A stretch of 64,000 nucleotides of DNA, from contig PABA01000159.1 in the NCBI GenBank assembly GCA_002699025.1, positions 1-64,000 of the forward strand, in the 5' to 3' direction. Shown one piece after another: positions 393-46,670 of the stretch (positions are counted from its first letter, which is position 1; each line of letters opens with the position of its first letter). The notes below the pieces were generated by a model that saw nothing but the letters and a program-made list of their open reading frames with translations, searched no databases and was not told the origin of the DNA. Both the position numbers and the translations under genes were made by a program. The stretch is from Sandaracinus sp. (GTDB lineage Bacteria; Myxococcota_A; Polyangia; Polyangiales; Houyiibacteriaceae).

Positions 393-1802
393 TCAGGAGC
401 GCGCGTCGAGGAGGCGGCGGAGCGCGGCGCGGTCGAGCTTGCCGCGCGGCGTGCGGGGGAGCGCGTCGACCCGCTCGAGGCGCGGGCGCCACGCGGCGGG
501 TAGCTCGCGGACGTGTGCCCGGAGCGCCGAACGCTCCACCGGCCCCGCGACGAAGGCGACCAGGCGCGGGCTCGGGGCACCCTCCATCACGAGGGCGAGG
601 ACGGCCGCCTCGTCGACGCCGGGGCAGGCCTCGAGGGCGCGGGCGACGGCCAGCGTGCTCACGCGCTCGCCCGCGATCTTCACGAGGTCGTCCGCGCGCC
701 CGGCGAGGTGCAGCACGCCGGCGGCGTCGCGATGGCCGCGGTCACCGGTGCGGAGGCCCTGGGGCCCGAGGGCCGCCGCCGTGGCCTCGGCGTCGTCGAG
801 GTAGGCGAGCATCACGTTGGGGCCGCGCACGACGAGCTCCCCCTCCTCGCCCGGAGCGCAGAGGCGCCCGCCCGCGCGCACGTCGACCTCGACGCCGGGG
901 AGCGGGCGACCGATGGCGCCGGCCCCGAACGCGGCCGGGTCGGAGGCGTCCTCGAGGAAGGCGACGCGCGGGGAGGCCTCCGTGAGGCCGTACTGGTTGA
1001 AGCGGCGGGCCGCGGGGAAGGCCTCGCGGAGCAGGCGCGCCGTGAGAGGATCGAGGGACGCGCCGGCGGAGGCGACGTAGGCCAGGGGAGGCGCAGGCTC
1101 GCCCTCGAGGACGGCCTGGGCGAGCCGGCGAAGCTGAGCCGGCACGGAGGAGAGGCCCTCGGCGCGGACGGCGCGGAGCGCCTCGAGCTGGCTCGAGGGG
1201 AAGGGGCCGCCGCGGCAGAGGCCGAGGGCGCCGCCGGCGCGGAGCGTGACGAGGGCCTGACCGACGAGCCCGTAGCTGTACCAGAGCGGGAGCAGCAGGC
1301 CGGTGCGCGGGTGCGCGCGGACGGGCAGGTAGCCGAGGATGGCGTCGACGTTGGCCTGGAGGCCGGCGCGACCGAGGACGACCCGCTTGGGGACACCCCC
1401 CGAGCCGGAGGTGGCGAGGACGAGGCCCGCGTCGGCGAGCGGGCCCTCGAAGCGGCGCGGATCGGGGCGCGCCTCGAGGGTGGGTGCCGTGAGCGTGCCG
1501 CCACAGACGAGGGCCGGGCGCACGGCGCCGAGGACCGCGTCCCGGCGAGGCGTCGCGAGCGTGCGATCGACGGGGAGGACGACGGCGTCCGCGGCGAAGG
1601 CGGCGAGGACGGCGACGAGGTAGGCGGCCTCGCTCTCCGCTTCGACGGCGACGGCGCGGCGGGCGACGGCGGCCTCGGCCTCGAGGCGCTCGGCGAGCGC
1701 GCCGACGCGGCGCTCGAGCTCGGCGTAGGAGAGGGGCGGGCCCGCGGGCGTCATGAGCGCCGGCGCCTCGGGCTCACCGCCGAGCCAGCTCAGCAGCGCC
1801 AC
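393..1802 (-). CDS. AMP-dependent acyl ligase (class I adenylate-forming)
   Basis: Predicted to activate a carboxylic acid as acyl-AMP and load it on CoA or a carrier protein. The 469-residue protein carries the family signatures in order: a TSGSGGVPK phosphate loop, the NQYGLTEA adenine motif, a TGDRG aspartate motif and a PRTPRGKLDR C-terminal hinge with the catalytic lysine. It is somewhat shorter than typical acyl-CoA synthetases (500-550 aa). I chose the GTG at 1802, because the residues after it (a short helix, then a YAEL segment) match the usual N-terminus; an in-frame ATG at 1754 is the alternative. Its start overlaps the end of the upstream KAS III gene by 13 bp, so the two are surely co-translated. 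The nearby ACP at 4286 is a plausible loading partner (inference). Confidence 0.88.
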   Translation of the reverse strand: MALLSWLGGEPEAPALMTPAGPPLSYAELERRVGALAERLEAEAAVARRAVAVEAESEAAYLVAVLAAFAADAVVLPVDRTLATPRRDAVLGAVRPALVCGGTLTAPTLEARPDPRRFEGPLADAGLVLATSGSGGVPKRVVLGRAGLQANVDAILGYLPVRAHPRTGLLLPLWYSYGLVGQALVTLRAGGALGLCRGGPFPSSQLEALRAVRAEGLSSVPAQLRRLAQAVLEGEPAPPLAYVASAGASLDPLTARLLREAFPAARRFNQYGLTEASPRVAFLEDASDPAAFGAGAIGRPLPGVEVDVRAGGRLCAPGEEGELVVRGPNVMLAYLDDAEATAAALGPQGLRTGDRGHRDAAGVLHLAGRADDLVKIAGERVSTLAVARALEACPGVDEAAVLALVMEGAPSPRLVAFVAGPVERSALRAHVRELPAAWRPRLERVDALPRTPRGKLDRAALRRLLDARS

Positions 1803-2824
1803 CGGGCCGCTCCCCAGGACATCCCGCCCCCCACCGCCGCGACGAGCAGCTCCGTCCCCGCGGCGGCCCGGCCGGCCGCGCGCGCGGCGGCGAGAGCGGC
1901 GACCCAGCCCGCCGAGCCGATGTTCGCGTGGTCGCCGACGCCCGCCGTCCAGGTGCGCTCCTCGGGGACACCCGCGTCCTCGGCGACGCGCTCGATGAGC
2001 GGCCGGCTGGTCTGGTGCGGGACGAAGAGCGCGGGAGCGACGGAGCTCGCGGGGAGCACGGCGTCGATCGCCTCGGCGTACTTCTCCGGGAGGACCTCGG
2101 CGAGCGCCTCGGGCGCGCCGCTCAAGCGGTAGCCGCCGCGGACGCGCTCGCTCTCGGTCGGCGGGAGGGCGCCGTCGGTCGTGATCAGGCCGCCGAGGCG
2201 GCCGTCGGTCTTCAGCGCGAGGGCGTGGAGGCGGGCGCCGTCGCGGCGACCGAGGACGAGCGCGGCGGCGCCGTCGCCGAGGGAGAGGAGCGCCATCTTG
2301 TGATCGGGGGGCAGCACCTTGGAGAAGGTCTCGGCGGCGACGAGGAGCACCGGGCCCGCGGCATGCTGGAGGTACGTGGCCGCGGTCTGGAGCGCGAAGA
2401 GGCCCGCCGCGCAGCCCGTGCGCACGTCCATGGCGGGCGCCGTGGTGCCGAGGACCGCGCCGACGGCGGCGCTCAGGGTGGAGGTCATGCGGTGCGGCGT
2501 GGAGGTCGTCGCGAGGAGGAGGCCGAGGTCGCGGGCACGGAGGCCGGCGTCGGTCAGGGCCGCCCGCGCGGCGGCCACGGCGAGGTCGGCGGTGCTCGCC
2601 TCGGCCCAGGGCGCGAGGGCGTCGCCGGGGCGGTGGACCCAGTGGCGGGCGCGGAGACCGAGGGGGCGCTCGACGCCCGCGGCGGCGAAGGCGAGGCGCT
2701 CGGGGGTGGCGTCGCGGTGGCCCGGGAGGAGCCGGAGGGCCTCCGTATTGTCGACGGGCGGGCCGGGGAGGTGGCGCGCCGCGCCGAGGAGCGCGACGCC
2801 CTCGAGGGGTCCGAGGGGCGTCAT
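1790..2824 (-). CDS. KAS III-type 3-oxoacyl synthase (first copy)
   Basis: Thiolase-fold condensing enzyme of the FabH/KAS III family, 344 aa. The catalytic triad is visible as Cys138 (in TGCAAG), His270 (VPHQ) and Asn301 (HANIGSAG), so it should be active, either in chain initiation or as an acyltransferase like other stand-alone KAS III proteins. The ATG at 2824 is fixed by a TATCCT hexamer ending 7 bases upstream and no Shine-Dalgarno sequence. The stop overlaps the AMP-ligase start, suggesting a two-gene leaderless operon. A second, divergent KAS III lies at 4510. Substrate unknown. Confidence 0.88.
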   Translation of the reverse strand: MTPLGPLEGVALLGAARHLPGPPVDNTEALRLLPGHRDATPERLAFAAAGVERPLGLRARHWVHRPGDALAPWAEASTADLAVAAARAALTDAGLRARDLGLLLATTSTPHRMTSTLSAAVGAVLGTTAPAMDVRTGCAAGLFALQTAATYLQHAAGPVLLVAAETFSKVLPPDHKMALLSLGDGAAALVLGRRDGARLHALALKTDGRLGGLITTDGALPPTESERVRGGYRLSGAPEALAEVLPEKYAEAIDAVLPASSVAPALFVPHQTSRPLIERVAEDAGVPEERTWTAGVGDHANIGSAGWVAALAAARAAGRAAAGTELLVAAVGGGMSWGAARWRC

Positions 2825-2831
2825 CGCGGCG

Positions 2832-2837
2832 AGGATA
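2832..2837 (-). promoter_or_regulatory. -10-like TATCCT, leaderless promoter of first KAS III
   Basis: TATCCT ends 7 bases before the ATG at 2824; no Shine-Dalgarno between them. Confidence 0.6.
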
Positions 2838-3043
2838 GAGCATCGCCTCCTTCGGTCGGGATGGGATCCCCCGAGCCCACTCCGACCCGCTCCGCGAGCG
2901 CGGGCAGCCTCGCACGGACGGCGGAGCGCGGACACGACGCGCATCCCGAGCCGAGGGAGGCATCCCCTTGCTCCCCGTTCACGGTACGGGCGGTGAAAGC
3001 GCCGAGCGAAGGGAGGTCTCCCCCGCGCGCCGCCTATGCGTCG

Positions 3044-4285: not shown

Positions 4286-4513
4286 ATGGAGGACGCGCTC
4301 GAAGAGCAGGTGCGCGCGGTGATCGCGGAGCACGCGGAGCTGCCGGCGGACGGGGCCGCGCCGCTCGAGGTGGAGTCGCTGGTGCTCGTGCAGATCGCCG
4401 AGGACCTCGAGGCGCGCTTCGACTTCGTGCTGCGCGGCCGCGAGCTCACGCCCGAGCACTTCGGCAGCGTCGCGGCGATCGTCGCCTTCGTGCGCACCAA
4501 GGTCGCCCCGTGA
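4286..4513 (+). CDS. Acyl carrier protein, atypical ESL motif
   Basis: A 75-residue acidic helical protein with the size and pattern of a type II acyl carrier protein. The phosphopantetheine serine is Ser31, but the usual Asp-Ser-Leu is Glu-Ser-Leu. Its TGA overlaps the GTG of the following KAS III (GTGA), so the pair is translationally coupled and likely works together. The AMP-ligase and the other KAS III start 1.5-2.5 kb away on the opposite strand. Whether the Glu-Ser-Leu site is recognised by the standard phosphopantetheinyl transferase cannot be told from sequence. Confidence 0.82.
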   Translation: MEDALEEQVRAVIAEHAELPADGAAPLEVESLVLVQIAEDLEARFDFVLRGRELTPEHFGSVAAIVAFVRTKVAP

Positions 4514-5559
4514 GGGTACTCCGGCCGGCGGCCTTCGGGCGTGGCGTGCGCCTTCTCGCGACGGGCGCGGCGCTCCCCGCGCGGGTGGTGACGAACGCGG
4601 ACCTGGTCGCCCTCGGCGCCCCGCTCGAGCCGGAGGAGATGGAGAAGCTCACGGGCATCCGCGAGCGGCGCTGGGTCGAAGGGGACGAGGCGACGAGCGA
4701 TCTCGCCGTGGGCGCGGCGCGAGAGGCCCTGGGGCGCGCCAGCGTCGCCGCAGAGGACGTCGCGCGGCTCGTCCTCGCGACGGTCTCGCCGGACCGGCTC
4801 TCCCCCTCGGCGGCTTGCGTCGCGCACGCGAAGCTCGGCCTCGGCGCGGTGCCCGTGCACGACCTGACGGCCTCCTGCAGCGGCTTCGTCTACGCCCTGG
4901 ATGCGGCCGCGCGCGCGGTCCTCACGGGCGACGCGCCGACGCTGGCCATCGGCGCCGACGTGCGCTCGCGCTTCGTGGACCCGACCGACCGCGCCACCTG
5001 CGCCCTCTTCGGGGACGGGGCCGCGGCCGCGCTCCTGGGCGAGGGACCGCCGGACGAAGGGCTCCTCGCGATCGGTCTGACGGCGGATGGGCGCGGGGCC
5101 GAGAGCGTCTACGTGCCCGCCGGGGGGAGCCGCGAGCCGGCGAGCGCCGAGACGGTCGAGGCCGGGCGCCACACCATCCGCATGGCCGAGGGGCCGCGCG
5201 TCTACCTCGAGGCCGTCGAGGGGATGATCGGCACGGCCGAGGCGCTCCTCGAGGCGACGCAGACCCGCTGGGAGGACCTCGCGCTCGTCGTCCCGCACCA
5301 GCCGAACCGCCGTATCCTCGACCGGCTCGCGCGCCTCGGCGACTTCGACGCGGACAAGCTCGTCGTCGACATCGAGGACAAGGGCAACATGTCGGCGGCC
5401 TCGGTGGGCGTCGCCCTCGACCGGGCCCTACGCGAGCGCGCCCGCGTCGGTGACCTCGTCCTCGTCGTCGCCGCCGGCGCGGGCTACACGGCCGGCGCCG
5501 CCCTCCTCCGCGTCGACGCCGCCCTGCTCGCCGCCCTCCGTCCAGGCGACGCCCCGTAG
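4510..5559 (+). CDS. KAS III-type 3-oxoacyl synthase (second copy)
   Basis: FabH-family condensing enzyme, 349 aa, with a complete triad: Cys123 (TASCSGF), His263 (VPHQPN) and Asn293 (DKGNMS). These are closer to canonical FabH than those of the copy at 1790. The GTG at 4510 overlaps the ACP stop. The catalytic core ends near the glycine-rich GAGYTAGAAL strand; about 20 more residues follow, and the last 132 bp overlap the antisense 3' end of the hexapeptide transferase gene. Likely elongates or transfers acyl chains on the adjacent ACP (inference from coupling). Confidence 0.88.
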   Translation: MRVLRPAAFGRGVRLLATGAALPARVVTNADLVALGAPLEPEEMEKLTGIRERRWVEGDEATSDLAVGAAREALGRASVAAEDVARLVLATVSPDRLSPSAACVAHAKLGLGAVPVHDLTASCSGFVYALDAAARAVLTGDAPTLAIGADVRSRFVDPTDRATCALFGDGAAAALLGEGPPDEGLLAIGLTADGRGAESVYVPAGGSREPASAETVEAGRHTIRMAEGPRVYLEAVEGMIGTAEALLEATQTRWEDLALVVPHQPNRRILDRLARLGDFDADKLVVDIEDKGNMSAASVGVALDRALRERARVGDLVLVVAAGAGYTAGAALLRVDAALLAALRPGDAP

Positions 5560-36366: not shown

Positions 36367-38769
36367 ATGTCCGCTCGGCGCATCGGCGCGCTCGCGACGC
36401 TCGCTCTCCTCGGGGGGCTCGGGGCCTGGGCCATCCCGCGCCTGCGGGTCGAGGCGGACATCACGCACTTCCTCCCGGCCACCGAGGACCGGCAGCTCGC
36501 CGAGCTCTCGCGCGCGCTGACCTCCTCGGATCTGAACCGCACGGTCACGCTCACCGTCGGCGCCCCCGACCGCGACACGGCCGCCGCCGCCGCCCGGGAG
36601 CTCGGCGACGCGCTCGAGGAGAGCGACGAGGTCGCCTGGGTCCGCGCGGGCCCGGACGACGACCTCCAGGAGGCCTTCTACGAAGCCTACTTCCCGCGCC
36701 GCCTCCACTTCATCACGGACGAGCGGCAGGCCCTCGAGGGCGCCTTCACGGACGACGCCCTCCGCGCCCGCGCCCGCCGCCTCAAGGAGCAGCTCGCGAG
36801 CCCCACGGGCACCTTCGTCCGCCGCATCGCCCCCGAGGACCCCTGGCTCCTCTTCCTCGACCACGTCCAGCGCCTCCGCGGCGGGCTCCAGGGCGACCTC
36901 GAGGTCCACGAGGGCGCCTTCGTCACCGAGCAGGAGGACGGCGTCTGGGGCGTCGTCCTCCTCGCGAGCCGCGCCTCCCCCTTCGACGGCGCCGCCTCCC
37001 GCCACCTCCTCGCCGACCTCGACGCCGCCTTCGCCGAGGTGAACCGGGCCCACGGCGGCGAGCTCGTCTTCGAGCAGGCGGGCGTCCACCGCATCGCCGT
37101 CCGCTCCGAGCGCCTCATCCGCGCCGACATCCAGCGCGTCTCCGTCGTCGGCACGATCGGCGTCGTCCTCCTGCTCCTCCTCCTCTTCCGCTCGCCGCGC
37201 CTCCTCGTCCTCGGCGCCCTCCCGCTCGCGGGCGGCATGGTCGTCTCGGTCGCCACGGTGCAGCTCGTCTTCGGCCGCATCCACGGCCTCACGCTCGCCT
37301 TCGGCGCCACCCTCATCGGCGTCGCCCTCGACTACGTCGCGCACCTGCTCAACCACGACCGGCTCGCCTCCGCCGGCAGCCCGGAGGCGACGGCGAAGCG
37401 CATCTGGCCCGGCCTCGCCCTCGGCGCGGCCACCACCGTCGCCGGCCTCGCGGGCCTCGCCTGGACCTCCTTCCCGGGCATCCGCCAGATGGCCGTCTTC
37501 ACCTCCGTCGGCGTGGCGACGGCGCTCCTCCTGACGCGCTTCGTGCTCCCGCCGCTCATGCCGACCGAGTCCACGCCGACGCGCCTCCACCGCGGGCTCG
37601 CCGCGCGGGTGAGCGCCGCCGTCGAGGGCCTCGCCTCCCGCCGCCGCGCGCTCTGGGCGCTCCCGGTCCTCGCGCTCGTCGTCGCCGCCCTCGGCCTCCC
37701 GCGCCTGAGCTGGATCGACGACATCCGCGCGCTCAACCCGACCGATCCGACCCTCGTCGCCGAGGACGAGCGCGTCCGCGGCCGCGTCGCGCGCATGGAG
37801 GCCGGCCGCTTCGCCGTGGCCACCGGCGACGACCTCGAGGCGGCCCTCGTCGCCAACGACGCGCTCCACGCGACCCTCGCCGAAGGGGTCGAGGCCGGCG
37901 AGCTCGAGCGCACCCGCTCGCTCCACCCGCTCCTCTGGTCCGCGGCGCTCCAGCGCGAGAACCGCGACGCCATCCCGGACGACGCCTGGGAGCGCACCGT
38001 GCGCGCGCTCGAGGCCGAGGACTTCGTCGCCGCGCCCTTCGCCCCCTTCCGCGAGGCCCTCGAGGCCCGCACCGAGCCGCTCCGCTGGGCCGACCTCGAG
38101 GCGACCCCCCTCGGCCGCCTCGCGGGCGCCCATCGCATGCCCTTCGGCGAGGGCGAGGCCCTGCTCACCTTCGTCAGCGGCGTGCGTGACCCGGCCGCCG
38201 TCCAGGCGCGCGTCGACGCCGTCGAGGGCGCCCGCTGGTTCGACCAGAACGCCTTCATGCAGGCCGCCTACCGCGGCTTCCGCACGCGCACCCTCGAGCT
38301 GGTCGGCGTCGGCCTCTTCGCCGTCTTCCTGCTCGTCTTCGTCCGCTACCGCCGGCCGGGGCTCAGCCTCGCCGCCTTCGCGCCGGCCCTCGTCGCCGCC
38401 GGCGCCACGCTCGGCGTGCTCGGCCTCCTCGGCCTCGAGGCCAACCTCCTGCACGTGGTCACGCTCCTGCTCGTCTTGAGCATGGGCGTCGACTACGGCG
38501 TCTTCATGGTCGAGGCGGAGCTCCACGCCCGCGAGGGCGGCGCCGAGGACGGCCCGGCCACCATCGTCAGCCTGCTCACGGCCTGCCTCTCGACCGTGGC
38601 GAGCTTCGGCGTGCTCGCCATGAGCGCGAACCCGGCGCTCCGCGCCATGGGCCTGACCGCCGCCATCGGCGTGCTCCTCAGCCTCCTCCTCGCGCCGACG
38701 GCGTGGATCCTCGTCCGCCGCCCGGACCGGCGAGCCGGCTCCGACGCCAGCTCGGGCGACGACGCGTAG
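36367..38769 (+). CDS. MMPL-family (RND superfamily) lipid exporter
   Basis: 800 aa. Duplicated architecture: one helix, a periplasmic domain of about 230 residues, five helices (SVVGTIGVVLLLLLLF, LTLAFGATLIGVALDYVAHLL), then the same again (LELVGVGLFAVFLLVF, LLHVVTLLLVLSMGVDYGVFM). The GVALDY and GVDYG motifs hold the proton-relay aspartates. MMPL exporters with LolA-like carriers accompany aryl-polyene and related pigment clusters. The five-gene operon ending in a LolA-like gene is convergent with it. Confidence 0.88.
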   Translation: MSARRIGALATLALLGGLGAWAIPRLRVEADITHFLPATEDRQLAELSRALTSSDLNRTVTLTVGAPDRDTAAAAARELGDALEESDEVAWVRAGPDDDLQEAFYEAYFPRRLHFITDERQALEGAFTDDALRARARRLKEQLASPTGTFVRRIAPEDPWLLFLDHVQRLRGGLQGDLEVHEGAFVTEQEDGVWGVVLLASRASPFDGAASRHLLADLDAAFAEVNRAHGGELVFEQAGVHRIAVRSERLIRADIQRVSVVGTIGVVLLLLLLFRSPRLLVLGALPLAGGMVVSVATVQLVFGRIHGLTLAFGATLIGVALDYVAHLLNHDRLASAGSPEATAKRIWPGLALGAATTVAGLAGLAWTSFPGIRQMAVFTSVGVATALLLTRFVLPPLMPTESTPTRLHRGLAARVSAAVEGLASRRRALWALPVLALVVAALGLPRLSWIDDIRALNPTDPTLVAEDERVRGRVARMEAGRFAVATGDDLEAALVANDALHATLAEGVEAGELERTRSLHPLLWSAALQRENRDAIPDDAWERTVRALEAEDFVAAPFAPFREALEARTEPLRWADLEATPLGRLAGAHRMPFGEGEALLTFVSGVRDPAAVQARVDAVEGARWFDQNAFMQAAYRGFRTRTLELVGVGLFAVFLLVFVRYRRPGLSLAAFAPALVAAGATLGVLGLLGLEANLLHVVTLLLVLSMGVDYGVFMVEAELHAREGGAEDGPATIVSLLTACLSTVASFGVLAMSANPALRAMGLTAAIGVLLSLLLAPTAWILVRRPDRRAGSDASSGDDA

Positions 38770-38781
38770 GTGCGCGCCTCA

Positions 38782-38930
38782 GCCCGGACGAGTCACCACG
38801 CGGCGTGATGATCGGGTCGCAGTGGATTCTCGAGACGCACGGGATCCAGGCCGTGTCTCGGCGAAGGGAGAGTCCGATTTGGGCCCGAAGGGTCGCGCGA
38901 GGGCGCGTCGACGGGTGACGAATGCGGGCT
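38782..38930 (+). repeat. MITE-like element, copy B
   Basis: Best-preserved copy. Left end GCCCGGACGAGTCACC and right end GGTGACGAATGCGGGC are imperfect inverted repeats. It fills the gap between two convergent genes, and its terminal CTAG gives the LolA-like gene its TAG stop on the minus strand. Confidence 0.8.
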
Positions 38931-39594
38931 AGAGGCGGAAGACGCGGCGGAGCTCGGCCTCGGACCAGCGCCGGCCGACGTTCACGTCGTGGAAGGTCGT
39001 GACGGTCGTGTCCCCGCTCACCTCGACCATGCGCATCTCCACCACGTTCGTGCCCCGGCCGCGCATCACCATGCGCTCGAGGAACTGGTCGAGGGGCGCG
39101 CCCTTCGGCCGCAGCGTGAGCTCCCAGCCGCCGTCGTCCTCCCGCGCGTAGCCGATGCGGTAGGTCTCCTCGAGGGCCGCCCTATCGCCCGCGAGCACGT
39201 GGCGGAAGCTCGAGACGAAGCCGGCGACGACCGGGTTGCTCGAGAGATCGATCTCCTGCCGCTCGCCGTTCGCCGTCATGGTGAGCCGCCCGTCCTCGAT
39301 CAGCGCGGCGGAGGGGGTCGGCGAGGTGACGCGGCGGAGCAGCCGGCCCGGGGGCGCGAAGTGGATCTCGCCCTCGCTCCGGAGCGGCACGGCGAGGAGC
39401 GCCACACGCTTCTCCTCGCGGAAGCGCGCCGAGAGCCCGCTCATGCCGCGGAAGGCGGTCAGGAGCTCGTCCAGCGAGGGCGCGCGCTCCTGGGCGAGCC
39501 CGGGCGCAGCGAGCGCGCCGATCGTGCCTCCGACGAAGAGGGCCAGGGCGAGCGCGGCGGCGAGCCTACGCGCGAATCCGCTCGAGCATCTCAC
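38929..39594 (-). CDS. LolA-like outer-membrane lipoprotein carrier
   Basis: 221 aa. A signal peptide (cleavage near LAAPGLAQ) is followed by the LolA half-barrel pattern (LDELLTAFRGMSGLSARFREEK, EGEIHFAPPGRLLRRV, then NGERQEIDL). In aryl-polyene clusters a LolA homologue with an MMPL pump is thought to move the lipid product to the outer membrane. The start overlaps the thioesterase gene by 29 bp. Confidence 0.85.
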   Translation of the reverse strand: MRCSSGFARRLAAALALALFVGGTIGALAAPGLAQERAPSLDELLTAFRGMSGLSARFREEKRVALLAVPLRSEGEIHFAPPGRLLRRVTSPTPSAALIEDGRLTMTANGERQEIDLSSNPVVAGFVSSFRHVLAGDRAALEETYRIGYAREDDGGWELTLRPKGAPLDQFLERMVMRGRGTNVVEMRMVEVSGDTTVTTFHDVNVGRRWSEAELRRVFRL

Positions 39595-39973
39595 GGGGCG
39601 TCTCCATCAGCATCGCCTCGTCGCGCATGGCGACGAGCGTCGTCCAGGCCCGCGCCGCGCGCCGGCCATGGGTGAGGTTCCGGATCTCGTAGGCCACCAG
39701 GAGCCGCTGCTCCACGTCCTTGAACCAGGCCTCCACCTGCAGCGTCTCCCCGTAGCGCAGCGGGAAGGCGTAGCGGCAGCGGCTCTCGATCACGACCATG
39801 TGCAGGCCGTGCTCGCGGAAGAACGCCATGTCCATGCCGCGCTCCTCGAAGAGCAGCGTGCGGGCGATCTCCAGGTACTTGTAGTAGTGGCCGTGCCATA
39901 CGATCCGCAGCGGGTCGCAGTCGTGGAAGGGGACGCGCTGCTCGTAGACGGCCGTGGGCCCGGTCTTCTTCAC
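39566..39973 (-). CDS. 4-hydroxybenzoyl-CoA-type (hotdog) thioesterase
   Basis: 135 aa hotdog-fold thioesterase of the 4HBT/YbgC type (VPFHDCDPLRIVWHGHYYKYLEIAR with the catalytic Asp in HDCD). The GTG at 39973 has a GGAGG Shine-Dalgarno 8 bases upstream; the much longer upstream frame is a shadow of the acyltransferase. Probably hydrolyses or trims an acyl-ACP/CoA intermediate of the operon's pathway. Confidence 0.87.
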   Translation of the reverse strand: MKKTGPTAVYEQRVPFHDCDPLRIVWHGHYYKYLEIARTLLFEERGMDMAFFREHGLHMVVIESRCRYAFPLRYGETLQVEAWFKDVEQRLLVAYEIRNLTHGRRAARAWTTLVAMRDEAMLMETPREMLERIRA

Positions 39974-40071
39974 TCTCGGATCCTCCGCAGCAGAACGGGG
40001 GCTGGGGACGGGGGGCTGGGCGGGCGCACTGGGCTGGGCTTGGGACGGCTCGGCCCGCCGGGCAAGCCCCG

Positions 40072-41124
40072 TCAGCTCTCCCCGACCTCCGCGACCTCGC
40101 CCTGCGTCGGCGCGTCGTCCTCGCGCCAGAACTCGAAGAAGTTGAACCAGTTCTCCGGCGCGCCGCGCACGAACTCGGCGAGCTGATCCGCGTACTGCTG
40201 CGCGTACTCCTGGAGCGCCTCCTGCCGGCGCCGGCGCGGGAGCACGATCCGCTCGGCGAAGGGAATGCAGAAGAGCTCGTAGTGGTTCCCGCCGCGGTAG
40301 ATGCCCGCCGTGAAGTAGACCGGGCAGCGCAGCATGGACGCGAGGATGTAGGGCCCGGCCGGGAGCTCGGCCTTCCCGCCGAGGAAGTCCACGGTCACGG
40401 TCTTCGCGCCCGGCTGCGTCCGATCCCCGAGGATGGCCACGAGCGCGCCCTGTTCGAGCTTCTCGCGGATGGAGAGCATGAAGTCGATCTGGCCCCCGTC
40501 GCCGATCTCGATGAGGCTCACCTTCGAGTCCGGGTCGAGCTCCTCGAGCACCTCGTTCCAGCGGCGCGCGTTCTTCGTGTAGACCACCGGGTGGAGCGGC
40601 AGGGCCTCGCGGGCGCTCTGCATGCGCATCGCGTAGAAGCTGCCGAGGTGGCCGCCGAGGAGGATGGCGCCGCGCCCCTCGTCCTTGAGCTTCTCGAGGT
40701 GGTAGTGGCCGTTGCGGCTGACGCGGAAGTACTTCGTGCGCCCACGAAGGAAGAAGAGCGCGTCGAGGGTGACCTCGCTGAAGCGCCGCACGTGGCGGTA
40801 GGACGCGCGGAAGCCCGTCTTCAGGCCGAGCCGGCGGCGGAGCTCGGTGACGGAGCGGCGCGCCGTGCGCGAGAAGAGCGTGAAGTAGAAGGCGACGAAG
40901 GCGACGATCAGGCGCGCGGGCCAGCGCCCGAACATGGTCGCGAAGACGATCAGCGCCTTGATGCCGAGGACCGAGCCGCGCTCCTTCTTCGCGCGCCACT
41001 CGGGCTCCTCCACCGGGGCGGCGGCCTCCACCTCGGGCATGGGCCCCTCGACCGGCGGCGCGGGGGGCGGCTGGGAGCGCTCGCGGGCGAGCTCCTCGGA
41101 GGAGGACGGGGACGCCAGGCTCAC
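40072..41124 (-). CDS. LpxL/HtrB-type lipid acyltransferase
   Basis: 350 aa. A Pro/Glu-rich N-terminus of about 50 residues precedes one membrane segment and an LPLAT domain (ILLGGHLGSFYAMR with the H-x4 catalytic region, ILGDRTQPGAKTVTVDFLGGKAELPAGP). Likely transfers an acyl or polyene chain to a lipid acceptor. The GTG at 41124 overlaps the stop of the COG4648 gene (GTGA). Confidence 0.87.
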   Translation of the reverse strand: MSLASPSSSEELARERSQPPPAPPVEGPMPEVEAAAPVEEPEWRAKKERGSVLGIKALIVFATMFGRWPARLIVAFVAFYFTLFSRTARRSVTELRRRLGLKTGFRASYRHVRRFSEVTLDALFFLRGRTKYFRVSRNGHYHLEKLKDEGRGAILLGGHLGSFYAMRMQSAREALPLHPVVYTKNARRWNEVLEELDPDSKVSLIEIGDGGQIDFMLSIREKLEQGALVAILGDRTQPGAKTVTVDFLGGKAELPAGPYILASMLRCPVYFTAGIYRGGNHYELFCIPFAERIVLPRRRRQEALQEYAQQYADQLAEFVRGAPENWFNFFEFWREDDAPTQGEVAEVGES

Positions 41125-41750
41125 GCCTCCCCCTCCGCGCGCTCGGCCGGGAAGAGCTTCGCCAGGAGCCGATCGTGCAGCCCGGCGCCGTAGTCCCGGA
41201 AGCGGTACTTCCGCAGCACGTACTCCCCGACGAACATCATCCCCATCAAACCGTACGCGATCCCGCCCGAGTACGCCGCCCACCAGCTCAGCGGCGCGGC
41301 GAGCGCGAGCACGCCCGCGGCGGCGCCGTTCAGCGCGAAGAAGACGCACCAGGCGACGGTCACCTGCCGGCAATGGGCCTGCTTCGGGGCGGAGAGCTCC
41401 GGCTCCTGCATGCGCGCGAAGCGCTCGATGATCGGCATCTCGCCCTTCAGCGAGGCGGCGAAGGTGGCGAGCAGGGCCCCGTTGATGAGCACCGGCAGGA
41501 GCAGCATGAAGCGCGCGTCATCGAAGACCACGCCGAGCAGGAGCAGGCTCATGATGACGAGCGGGATGCGGAGGACGGCGAGCAGGTGCCCGCGCTCGGC
41601 CTTGCGGAAGCGGATCGCGATGGCCGGAAGCACGAGCGCCATGACCAGCAGGCCGACGACGCGCGGGCTGAAGTGGGCGAGGCTCCACCAGATGGCAAGG
41701 GGATAGACCACCGCGAGCACGACGTTCAGTACGGTGACGACGACCCGCAT
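41121..41750 (-). CDS. COG4648-type membrane protein
   Basis: 209 aa with seven hydrophobic stretches, including NVVLAVVYPLAIWWSLAHF at the start. Proteins of this type occur almost only in aryl-polyene/xanthomonadin-like clusters and have no known activity. It lies 28 bp behind the ketoreductase and overlaps the acyltransferase, anchoring the operon's identity. Confidence 0.8.
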   Translation of the reverse strand: MRVVVTVLNVVLAVVYPLAIWWSLAHFSPRVVGLLVMALVLPAIAIRFRKAERGHLLAVLRIPLVIMSLLLLGVVFDDARFMLLLPVLINGALLATFAASLKGEMPIIERFARMQEPELSAPKQAHCRQVTVAWCVFFALNGAAAGVLALAAPLSWWAAYSGGIAYGLMGMMFVGEYVLRKYRFRDYGAGLHDRLLAKLFPAERAEGEA

Positions 41751-41778
41751 CCCCCCAGCGCTCCCTCTCCCCCGCCCC

Positions 41779-42501
41779 TCAGAGCCCGCCGCTCATGACC
41801 ACGACCTGCCCGGTGATGTAGCCGGCCAGGTCGCTCGCCAGCCAGCCGACGAGGGAGGCGACCTCCTCGGGCTTGCCGACGCGGCGCATGGGAATGTGCT
41901 TGAGGATGATGTCGACCGGCGCGTCCTCGATCATGTCGGTCTCGACGAGGCCGGGGGCGATCGCGTTCACGGTCACGCCGCGCTTGGCGACCTCCTGCGC
42001 GAGGGACTTGGTCGCGCCGATGAGCCCGGCCTTGGCGGCGGCGTAGTTCACCTGGCCGCGGTTGCCGTCGACGCCGCTGACGCTCGAGATGTTGATGATG
42101 CGGCCCCAGCGGCGGCGGACCATGGGCATCACGAGCGGGCGGGTGACGTTGAAGAAGCCGTCGAGCGTGGTGCGGGTGACCGACTCCCACTGCTCCCAGC
42201 TCATCTGCGGGAAGCTCGCGTCCTTCGCGATGCCGGCGTTGTTCACGAGCACGCCGACCGGCACCTCGTCGGCGATGAGCTTCTCGAGGGCGGCGCCCGA
42301 GGCCTCGCGATCGGTCACGTCGAACTTGAGCAGCGTGACCTGCCCGCCGTCCGCCTCGATGGCGGCCTTCACCTCCTCGGCCGCCGCGTCGTTCGAGCGG
42401 TAGTTGAGCAGGATCGGGTGGCCGGCGGCGGCGAGGGTGTGGCAGATGGCGGCGCCGATTCCGCGGCTTCCGCCGGTGACGAGGGCGTGGGGCTTGCTCA
42501 T
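41779..42501 (-). CDS. FabG-like 3-oxoacyl-ACP reductase
   Basis: 240 aa classical SDR: TGGSRGIG cofactor motif, NNAG, catalytic Ser (NISSVSG) and YxxxK (YAAAK), PGLVETDM. First gene of the five-gene operon, with an AGGAG Shine-Dalgarno 4 bases before the ATG. In this context it more likely serves the pigment/lipid pathway than housekeeping fatty acid synthesis (inference). Confidence 0.9.
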   Translation of the reverse strand: MSKPHALVTGGSRGIGAAICHTLAAAGHPILLNYRSNDAAAEEVKAAIEADGGQVTLLKFDVTDREASGAALEKLIADEVPVGVLVNNAGIAKDASFPQMSWEQWESVTRTTLDGFFNVTRPLVMPMVRRRWGRIINISSVSGVDGNRGQVNYAAAKAGLIGATKSLAQEVAKRGVTVNAIAPGLVETDMIEDAPVDIILKHIPMRRVGKPEEVASLVGWLASDLAGYITGQVVVMSGGL

Positions 42502-44056: not shown

Positions 44057-44980
44057 TCAGCCCTCGTGGACGATGCGCGCCGTGGTCTCGGAGGGCTCGA
44101 GCGCCTCGCGGCCGACCTGGTAGCGGAGGGCGCGCTCGATCACCGGCGCCCAGCTCACCCAGGCGTGGTCGCCGACGTACTCCTCGGCGTGGTGGTGGAT
44201 GCCGCTCTCCTCGAGGTGCTCGCTGAAGCGCTCGTTCAGGCGCTTGATGCCGCCCCGGTCGTTCGTGCCCCAGGCCAGGAAGACCGAGAGCCGCACGTCC
44301 TCCGGGTCGTCCCAGCGGAGGAAGAGGTCCTCGTCGCGCACGCGCGCCGGGTCGGGGGGCCCGAAGATGCGGTGCGTCGGGATGAGGATGCTGTAGAGGC
44401 GGTTGTTCGTGAAATCGAGCATCTGCTCGGTGTCGAAGATCGGGCCGCTCAGCGCCGAGACGGAGCGGAAGGCCTCGGGCCGGTCGAGGGCGAAGCGGAG
44501 CGCACCGTGGCCGCCCATGCTCACGCCCATCACGTGGCAGCCCTGGGGGCAGGGCTGGGTGTGGTAGCGGCGCACGACCTCGGGCAGGAGCTCGTCGACG
44601 ACCCAGTCCTGGTAGTGCCGCGTGCCGTCGTGCCAGTTCATCCAGAAGCCGTTGTCGCCCTGGGGGAACATGAGGACGGCGCGCGGGAGGCGACCCTCCC
44701 GGTAGGCGGCGTCGAAGCGGGCCGAGAGGCCGTGACGGTCGAAGACGGCCGGGTCGTCGCCGCCGCCGTGGAGGAAGACGACGAGCGGGAGGCGCTCGTC
44801 CTCGCGGAAGCCCGGGGGCGTGTAGACCGAGTAGCTGAGCTGCGCGCCGCCCATGGTCTCGGCGCGCACGGGGACGTACTCGAGGCGGCGCTCGAAGCCG
44901 CAGCCCGCGAGGAGGACGCCAGCGAGGAGGACGCCAGCGAGGGCGAGGGAGGCGAGCGAGGGCGTGGGGTTTCGCATCAT
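44057..44980 (-). CDS. Esterase D-like lipoprotein (alpha/beta-hydrolase)
   Basis: 307 aa. The signal has a duplicated 15-bp unit (LAGVLLAGVLLAGC) ending in a lipobox. PF00756-type esterase domain: HGGGDDPAVF, nucleophile in GVSMGGHGAL, FLAWGTND acid region, GDHAW histidine. Acts at the membrane surface on an ester such as mycolyl-like or siderophore-type substrates; exact substrate unknown. The ATG at 44980 (or 44977) follows an AAAGG Shine-Dalgarno; a canonical promoter with an operator is upstream. Confidence 0.85.
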   Translation of the reverse strand: MMRNPTPSLASLALAGVLLAGVLLAGCGFERRLEYVPVRAETMGGAQLSYSVYTPPGFREDERLPLVVFLHGGGDDPAVFDRHGLSARFDAAYREGRLPRAVLMFPQGDNGFWMNWHDGTRHYQDWVVDELLPEVVRRYHTQPCPQGCHVMGVSMGGHGALRFALDRPEAFRSVSALSGPIFDTEQMLDFTNNRLYSILIPTHRIFGPPDPARVRDEDLFLRWDDPEDVRLSVFLAWGTNDRGGIKRLNERFSEHLEESGIHHHAEEYVGDHAWVSWAPVIERALRYQVGREALEPSETTARIVHEG

Positions 44981-45037
44981 CACCTTTCCGGCCGGGACCA
45001 CCATCCGGCGCGCGGAGCCGACGCCCCGTCGACATCA

Positions 45038-45221: not shown

Positions 45222-46670
45222 GTGGAGCAGCTCTCGGGTCTGGACGCAGCGTTTCTGTACCTGGAGACCCCCCAGATGCACATGCACGTCGCGCTCTGCG
45301 CCGTGCTCGACCCGAGCGAGATGCCGGGCGGCTATCGCTTCGAGGCCATCGAGAACCTCGTGCTGAGCCGCCTCGACCGGCTGCCCCCGTTCACGCGCCG
45401 GCTGGTGATGGACCCGCTCGGCCTCGACCACCCGCACTGGATCGAGGATCCGGAGTTCGATCCGATCCACCACATCCGCCGCGTGAGCTGCCCGGCCCCC
45501 GGCGGCTCCCACGAGCTCGGGCGCCTCGTCGGGCGCATCACCAGCCGCCCCCTCCCGCGCGACCGGCCCCTCTGGGAGCTCTGGGTCGTCGAGGGTCTCG
45601 CCGAGGGGCGCTTCGCCATCGTCGCCAAAGTCCACCACTCGGCCGTCGACGGCATGATGGGCGCCGGCCTGATGGTGAACCTCTTCGGCATGACGCGGGA
45701 GCCCGCCCCGGAGGCGCCGCCGCCGCGGGAGGAGGAGCACCCGGTGCCGCCGGAGCCACGCCCCTCGGACATCGAGATGCTGAAGAGCGCGGCGCGGAAG
45801 CGGCTCGCCCAGCCGCGCAAGCTCGTCGACCTGGCCAAGCGCACGGTCGAGCGGGTCGGCGGCGTGGTGGAGCGGCGCCGCGACCCCGAGCTCGCCCACG
45901 GGGGCACGCCCCTGACCGCGCCGCGCACCCGCCTGAACCGCCCCATCGGCCCGCAGCGGGACGTCGGCTTCGCGCGCCTCTCGCTCGCCGAGCTGAAGGC
46001 GATCAAGGCGGCGGTGGAGGGGGCGAAGCTGAACGACGTGCTCCTCGCCGTCGTCGGGGGCGCGCTCCGCCGCTACCTCGCGCACCACGACGACCTCCCC
46101 GAGGTGCCGCTCGTCGCCACCTGCCCCATCGCGACCGGCGCCGGGCGCGGCAACAACAACGTCGCCGCCATGTTCGTGCCCATCGCCACGCACCTCGCGG
46201 AGCCGGAGGCGCGCCTCGAGGCGATCCAGGCGGCGACGCGGGGCGCCAAGGAGGAGCACGCGGTCCTCGGCAAGGGCGAGCTGCTCCAGGACTGGGCCGA
46301 TCTGGCGCCGACGACGACCTTCTCCGTGGCGAGCTCGCTCTACAGCCGGCTGAAGCTGAGCAAGCACCACCGGCCCGTGCACAACCTCATCGTCTCGAAC
46401 GTCCCCGGGCCGCCCATGCCCGTGTACCTGGCCGGCGCGGAGCTCGAGGCCGCCTACCCCATGGGCCCGATCCTCGACGGCGCGGCCCTGAACGTGACCG
46501 TGATGAGCTACCGCGGGCAGGTCGACTTCGGCTTCATGGTCGCGCGCGACGTGGTGCCCGACGTGTGGCGCCTCGCCGACGCCGTCGCCCCCGCCTTCCG
46601 CGAGCTCCGCGACGCCGTCCTGGGCGCGCCGAGCGAGGCGAGCCCCGAGCGCTCCACACCAGCCGAGTAG
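45222..46670 (+). CDS. Wax ester synthase/diacylglycerol acyltransferase
   Basis: 482 aa WS/DGAT family. Makes wax esters or triacylglycerol from acyl-CoA. The active-site motif HHxxxDG is His138-Gly144 (HHSAVDG), with SNVPGPP and the usual C-terminal GxxLNVTVMSY region. GTG start with GGGGAGG 4 bases upstream. Divergent from the esterase; the shared gap has the operator above. Supports storage-lipid synthesis in this organism. Confidence 0.92.
   Translation: MEQLSGLDAAFLYLETPQMHMHVALCAVLDPSEMPGGYRFEAIENLVLSRLDRLPPFTRRLVMDPLGLDHPHWIEDPEFDPIHHIRRVSCPAPGGSHELGRLVGRITSRPLPRDRPLWELWVVEGLAEGRFAIVAKVHHSAVDGMMGAGLMVNLFGMTREPAPEAPPPREEEHPVPPEPRPSDIEMLKSAARKRLAQPRKLVDLAKRTVERVGGVVERRRDPELAHGGTPLTAPRTRLNRPIGPQRDVGFARLSLAELKAIKAAVEGAKLNDVLLAVVGGALRRYLAHHDDLPEVPLVATCPIATGAGRGNNNVAAMFVPIATHLAEPEARLEAIQAATRGAKEEHAVLGKGELLQDWADLAPTTTFSVASSLYSRLKLSKHHRPVHNLIVSNVPGPPMPVYLAGAELEAAYPMGPILDGAALNVTVMSYRGQVDFGFMVARDVVPDVWRLADAVAPAFRELRDAVLGAPSEASPERSTPAE

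Follow-up and report, generated by a model that had tools for sequence, protein, structure and literature searches.

Does the six-gene module at 36367-42501 of the DNA analysed here belong to an aryl-polyene (APE) or xanthomonadin-type pathway whose chain-building genes lie elsewhere, or does it serve a new pathway in which the export half handles a product made by KAS III? Both possibilities were raised by a sequence-only reading of the window, which is the whole stretch under study (bases 1-64000 of C170, a contig of 96,094 bases; 73.6% GC). The source genome (G000) is a 9.24 Mb draft in 238 contigs with 96% completeness, and among the named relatives in which the acyltransferase of the module was found, the nearest were metagenome genomes of Myxococcota/Myxococcales.

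All six genes named in that reading were recovered as open frames with Pfam family matches. Gene starts are generally estimates; for the acyltransferase, a longer frame reaches 41373. The plus strand carries an MMPL/RND-type exporter of the ApeM type (36367..38769; PF03176), and the other five genes lie on the minus strand. These encode a LolA-like periplasmic carrier of the ApeL type (38929..39594; PF19574, E=3.5e-17), which is related to the NCBIfam flexirubin LolA2 model with a score below the model cut-off, a 4HBT-fold thioesterase (4HBT_2) of the ApeK type (39566..39973; PF13279, E=1e-13), an LpxL-type acyltransferase corresponding to the C-terminal half of the ApeJ type (40072..41124; PF03279, E=1.5e-12), a COG4648/IspA-like membrane protein of the ApeG type with a weak match to PF04279 (41121..41750; 8e-7), and a FabG-type ketoreductase of the ApeQ type (41779..42501; PF13561, E=1e-55) whose closest PDB matches are 7czc, 4iiu and 7caw. 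The five minus-strand genes overlap or almost abut and look like one operon, with the exporter gene convergent on them. As the earlier reading had noted, neither the Pfam scans of chosen genes nor the open reading frames read at 32-46 kb revealed a ketosynthase (KS), chain-length factor (CLF) or dehydratase in the module or next to it.

Three further genes are located beside the module. A lipoprotein-like esterase (44057..45004, minus strand; PF00756), which the earlier reading had not mentioned, is conserved next to FabG on its upstream side in six genomes belonging to a clade that lacks the usual ligase, as described below, and it is restricted to this clade among the loci read. A wax ester synthase/DGAT-like gene (45222-46670, plus strand) and a cytochrome P450 gene (46743-48155, minus strand) were also observed; neither was seen in the joined clusters of relatives.

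The chain-building parts were found elsewhere in the same genome, where a PF00109 search gave fourteen matches. One contig (C109:2419-7985) contains a PRK09185-type KS, a short PF13723 CLF, a PRK09116-type KS, a FAD halogenase-like enzyme, a GT2 and an acyl carrier protein (ACP). The first two form a pair of the ApeO-ApeC type (PRK09185 above cut-off plus PF13723; best PDB matches 6qsp and 7f28), and the third is a second ketosynthase of the ApeR type (PRK09116 above cut-off; best PDB matches 4ewg and 7f27). Among solved structures, the nearest to the three condensing proteins are homologues of ApeO, ApeC and ApeR (PMC8358021). A second contig, C130, contains PlsC, a further KS, two Trp_halogenase-family proteins, an ACP and ApeP, the sole PF22817 match in the genome, whereas ApeI, the sole PF22818 match, occurs on C145 together with a DUF3261 gene; both dehydratase matches are above cut-off. 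C130 and C145 are probably one locus because their left ends (L003:1-42 and L086:1-42) share an exact 42-base terminal overlap in opposite orientation, which fits the gene order in a relative (G003); the ends share further 31-mers, and a large cysteine-rich repeat gene would lie between ApeI and PlsC across the probable join. With the ketoreductase, thioesterase, COG4648 protein, LolA and MMPL of the window and the DUF3261 protein of C145 all present, fifteen of the eighteen named functions of the E. coli ape list (PMC8253772), compared by function and family and not by direct protein comparison, are accounted for at three or more places; of the other three, ApeH was not found, and ApeA and ApeB were left out of the search.

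Three flavoproteins encoded near these genes are halogenase-like (L002:5646-6890 on C109; L003:2877-4442 and L003:4908-6677 on C130). They carry the GxGxxG, WxWxIP and K/H-x-GES motifs that are typical of flavin halogenases, and halogenation of the pigment is possible, as in xanthomonadins. Two other sets of condensing enzymes were not counted among the pathway parts. The KS pair on C141 (L001:5076-11836) occurs with an acyl-AMP ligase, an ACP and an AONS-like enzyme in a type II-like arrangement that looks like a separate cluster, and the KS on C53 adjoins ACP and FabG-like genes and looks like housekeeping fatty-acid synthesis.

Relatives show these separate parts in one piece. In G003 all the pathway pieces and the window-type genes occur on one contig in a run of about 24 kb, in which the esterase adjoins the window-type module; an aconitase gene flanks GT2-ACP both there and in G000. 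The KS set is also contiguous with window-type genes in G034, G066, G073 and G005, with the MMPL gene falling outside the stretch read in the first three of these. The same gene set was found in Paucimonas lemoignei and most of it in a locus of Lysobacter xinjiangensis. In the joined clusters of relatives the 4HBT gene keeps its position and the LpxL-type acyltransferase gene adjoins GT2. The placement of the COG4648 protein is backed by joined or complete clusters in which its orthologue lies between the ACP and the AMP-ligase. The window MMPL has a 46% identical orthologue inside the G003 cluster and orthologues in others too. The proposed assignment of the six genes to an APE/xanthomonadin cluster is thus supported.

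The genes also occur together across genomes. Strong acyltransferase matches were found in 26 of 76 genomes and strong matches to the C109 KS in 25, all 25 being common to both sets (25/26; Fisher p=3e-19). The one carrier without a strong KS match is G013, a genome of 81% completeness in which the contig concerned has other pathway genes. Strong homologues of Hal130a were found in 21 of the 26 carriers and in one other genome. In both the KS tree and the acyltransferase tree, G000 groups with G010 and G015. The presence of the genes, their families, their co-occurrence and their joined arrangement in relatives are direct observations, and from them we consider it highly probable that the module provides ketoreduction, release, lipid attachment and export in a single aryl-polyene/xanthomonadin-type pathway, the genes of which are dispersed over at least three places in G000. 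Of the two possibilities raised at the outset the split cluster is the one supported, KS, CLF and both dehydratases being present in the genome. One part of the earlier doubt persists: the ApeH-type ligase is missing throughout a clade.

We infer the reaction order, product and destination by analogy with the systems characterised in E. coli, Xenorhabdus and Acinetobacter. An ACP-bound starter would be elongated by the KS-CLF pair and ApeR of C109, with each keto group reduced by the window FabG and the product dehydrated by ApeI and ApeP to give a conjugated polyene. The window 4HBT thioesterase would then free the chain, and PlsC, GT2 and the window LpxL-type protein would attach it to a membrane lipid. 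Finally, the window MMPL and LolA, together with the DUF3261 lipoprotein, would carry the product to the outer membrane. Since neither ApeH nor one contiguous gene cluster was found in G000, the pathway is not classed as a canonical APE member although it is predicted to work like an APE or xanthomonadin pathway.

Against this explanation stand the weak family match of the COG4648 protein, the lack of an ApeH-type ligase and the non-contiguity of the parts in G000, and also one feature of the acyltransferase: the putative enzyme appears to be without its usual catalytic acid. The usual catalytic motif of the family is HX4(D/E), in which D/E is the acid; the window protein has HLGSFY at this place. 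The acid is replaced by Y, S, A or H in G000 and a large group of relatives and is retained in G021, G062 and the outgroups.

A surprising departure from the known pathways concerns the starter. Other carriers have an AMP-ligase gene after COG4648 and usually also an aromatic ammonia-lyase gene beside LpxL/4HBT. E. coli APE synthesis involves ApeH (PMC8253772). The best match in G000 to a myxobacterial ApeH-type query is only 3e-13, and with this one query, not a profile, no ApeH-type ligase was found at E<=1e-25 in any of nine genomes of the clade f1 (G000, G003, G006, G007, G008, G009, G010, G014 and G015), which are 82-99% complete, G007 being in about 40 contigs; the ligase is present in 17 of the 26 carriers, that is, in all 17 outside the clade. 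A motif scan for AMP-ligases was discarded as too strict because it missed the Paucimonas ligase that BLAST found. The cluster-type aromatic ammonia-lyase follows the same division, with 14 of the 17 ligase carriers and none of the nine clade genomes having it. Lyase identities to the query are bimodal (at least 56% for the cluster type and at most 44% for the rest); G025, in which no acyltransferase match was found, has a partial match of 60%. The ammonia-lyase that G000 does encode, on C187, was rejected as the pathway lyase because it is not of the cluster type, having 44% identity and a Ser-His pair in place of the Tyr-His of most cluster lyases. Histidine ammonia-lyases usually have Ser-His.

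The clade-wide absence of the ligase and the cluster-type lyase was observed directly, and it means that both the usual starter supply and the usual loading are gone. As both trees unite the nine genomes in a single group (100/100 and 97/96), the pattern fits a single joint loss of the two genes. No ligase occurs among the conserved neighbours of the clade KS set. A lysine-2,3-aminomutase-like gene and a sulfotransferase were seen to adjoin this set in G003 (L072:7278-9761), G006, G007 and G014, and a sulfotransferase is also beside it in G008; neither gene is near the set on C109 in G000.

The clade might have kept polyene building and export and changed the starter, which would be either non-aryl or an aryl unit brought in by an unrelated loader. 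Besides the joint absence of ligase and lyase in nine genomes, this is consistent with the esterase being confined to the clade and with a TIGR04444 search of the 26 genomes, in which no XanB2/FkbO-type chorismatase was above cut-off and one weak match was found in G010; a chorismatase was accordingly dropped as a starter source. Against a changed starter, two ApeR positions, Tyr135 and Phe202, whose proposed role in the A. baumannii protein is aryl-group stacking (PMC8358021), are kept in the clade with Phe replacing Tyr in G003 only, and other AMP-ligases in G000 are candidates for loading. We regard this alternative as a real but lesser possibility; it refines rather than contradicts the scattered-pathway explanation, and under it the clade would make something other than a standard aryl polyene. 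With moderate confidence, we favour a chain that is still of the aryl type but whose starter is loaded by another enzyme. More tentatively, this myxobacterial lineage might make a polyene lipid with aryl-polyene machinery by an undescribed priming route, the ApeH-type ligase and ammonia-lyase having been lost together, and with three halogenase-like flavoproteins the head group is perhaps unusual.

The KAS III genes are very unlikely to supply the product that the module exports. They are present far from the module as the sequence-only reading had described: an AMP-ligase (393-~1770, minus strand), a KAS III (1790-2944, minus strand), a small ACP with no Pfam hit (4286-4513, plus strand) and a second KAS III (4510-5559, plus strand). 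The set surrounds an SMP-30 gene, and it is rare among relatives as judged by its AMP-ligase. A KAS III-made product would be in keeping with the location of these genes on the same contig as the module, but in the cross-genome search, which covered the AMP-ligase and not the KAS III genes themselves, G007 (51% identity) was alone among the eight other clade members in having a near orthologue, which lies about 300 kb from the module there. The set is also missing from the joined clusters, and it is the C109 KS set that co-occurs with the module. For want of co-occurrence with the module, this ligase was also ruled out as a replacement for the ApeH-type ligase, and the new KAS III pathway suggested earlier was abandoned.

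That draft assembly or mixed bins produced the split and the apparent lack of the ligase is most improbable, even with 238 contigs at 96% completeness, several pieces near contig ends and the overlapping ends of C130 and C145, because the module is more than 36 kb from one end of its contig and 53 kb from the other, the two halves are 158 kb apart in G043, which is a single contig, and about 230 kb apart in G058, the ligase is missing from all nine genomes including the little-fragmented G007, and the KS and acyltransferase trees agree on the place of G000. On the distances from the contig ends and on the separation in G043 and G058, we take the split to be real.

The presence of APE genes in such bacteria is not new, as a study using antiSMASH has reported APE clusters in Polyangiales (PMC11821767). 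In a limited and incomplete literature search, we found no paper on scattered APE pathways or on clades without ApeH. Myxobacterial APE pathways can be scattered over at least three loci, and in that state they would be missed or truncated by cluster-finding programs that look for accessory genes adjacent to the core genes. The results also define a clade in which starter loading must happen differently, and how this step is filled is directly testable.

Compared with the known systems, the flexirubin cluster of Chitinophaga pinensis (PMC3992019) has related LolA and ketoreductase families, although the LolA2 and FlxB models were not reached here. The ligase-bearing myxobacterial relatives have the same ammonia-lyase plus ligase start as flexirubin, whereas the ligase-less clade has neither gene. 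The xanthomonadin and Lysobacter xanthomonadin-like clusters (PMC3691225) share the type II KS-CLF and two dehydratases with G000, and halogenase genes occur in xanthomonadin clusters (PMC3691225); the L. xinjiangensis locus has most of the same genes. They differ from G000 in that its genes are scattered and that no XanB2-type chorismatase is above cut-off. Unlike an APE cluster, G000 has its genes at three or more loci, has ApeJ as two separate genes and combines the lack of an ApeH-type ligase with the presence of halogenase-like flavoproteins. Even so, fifteen of the eighteen named functions are held in common with apeA-R of E. coli CFT073 (PMC8253772), and the KS, CLF and second KS of G000 match the solved A. 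baumannii ApeO-ApeC and ApeR structures best (PMC8358021).
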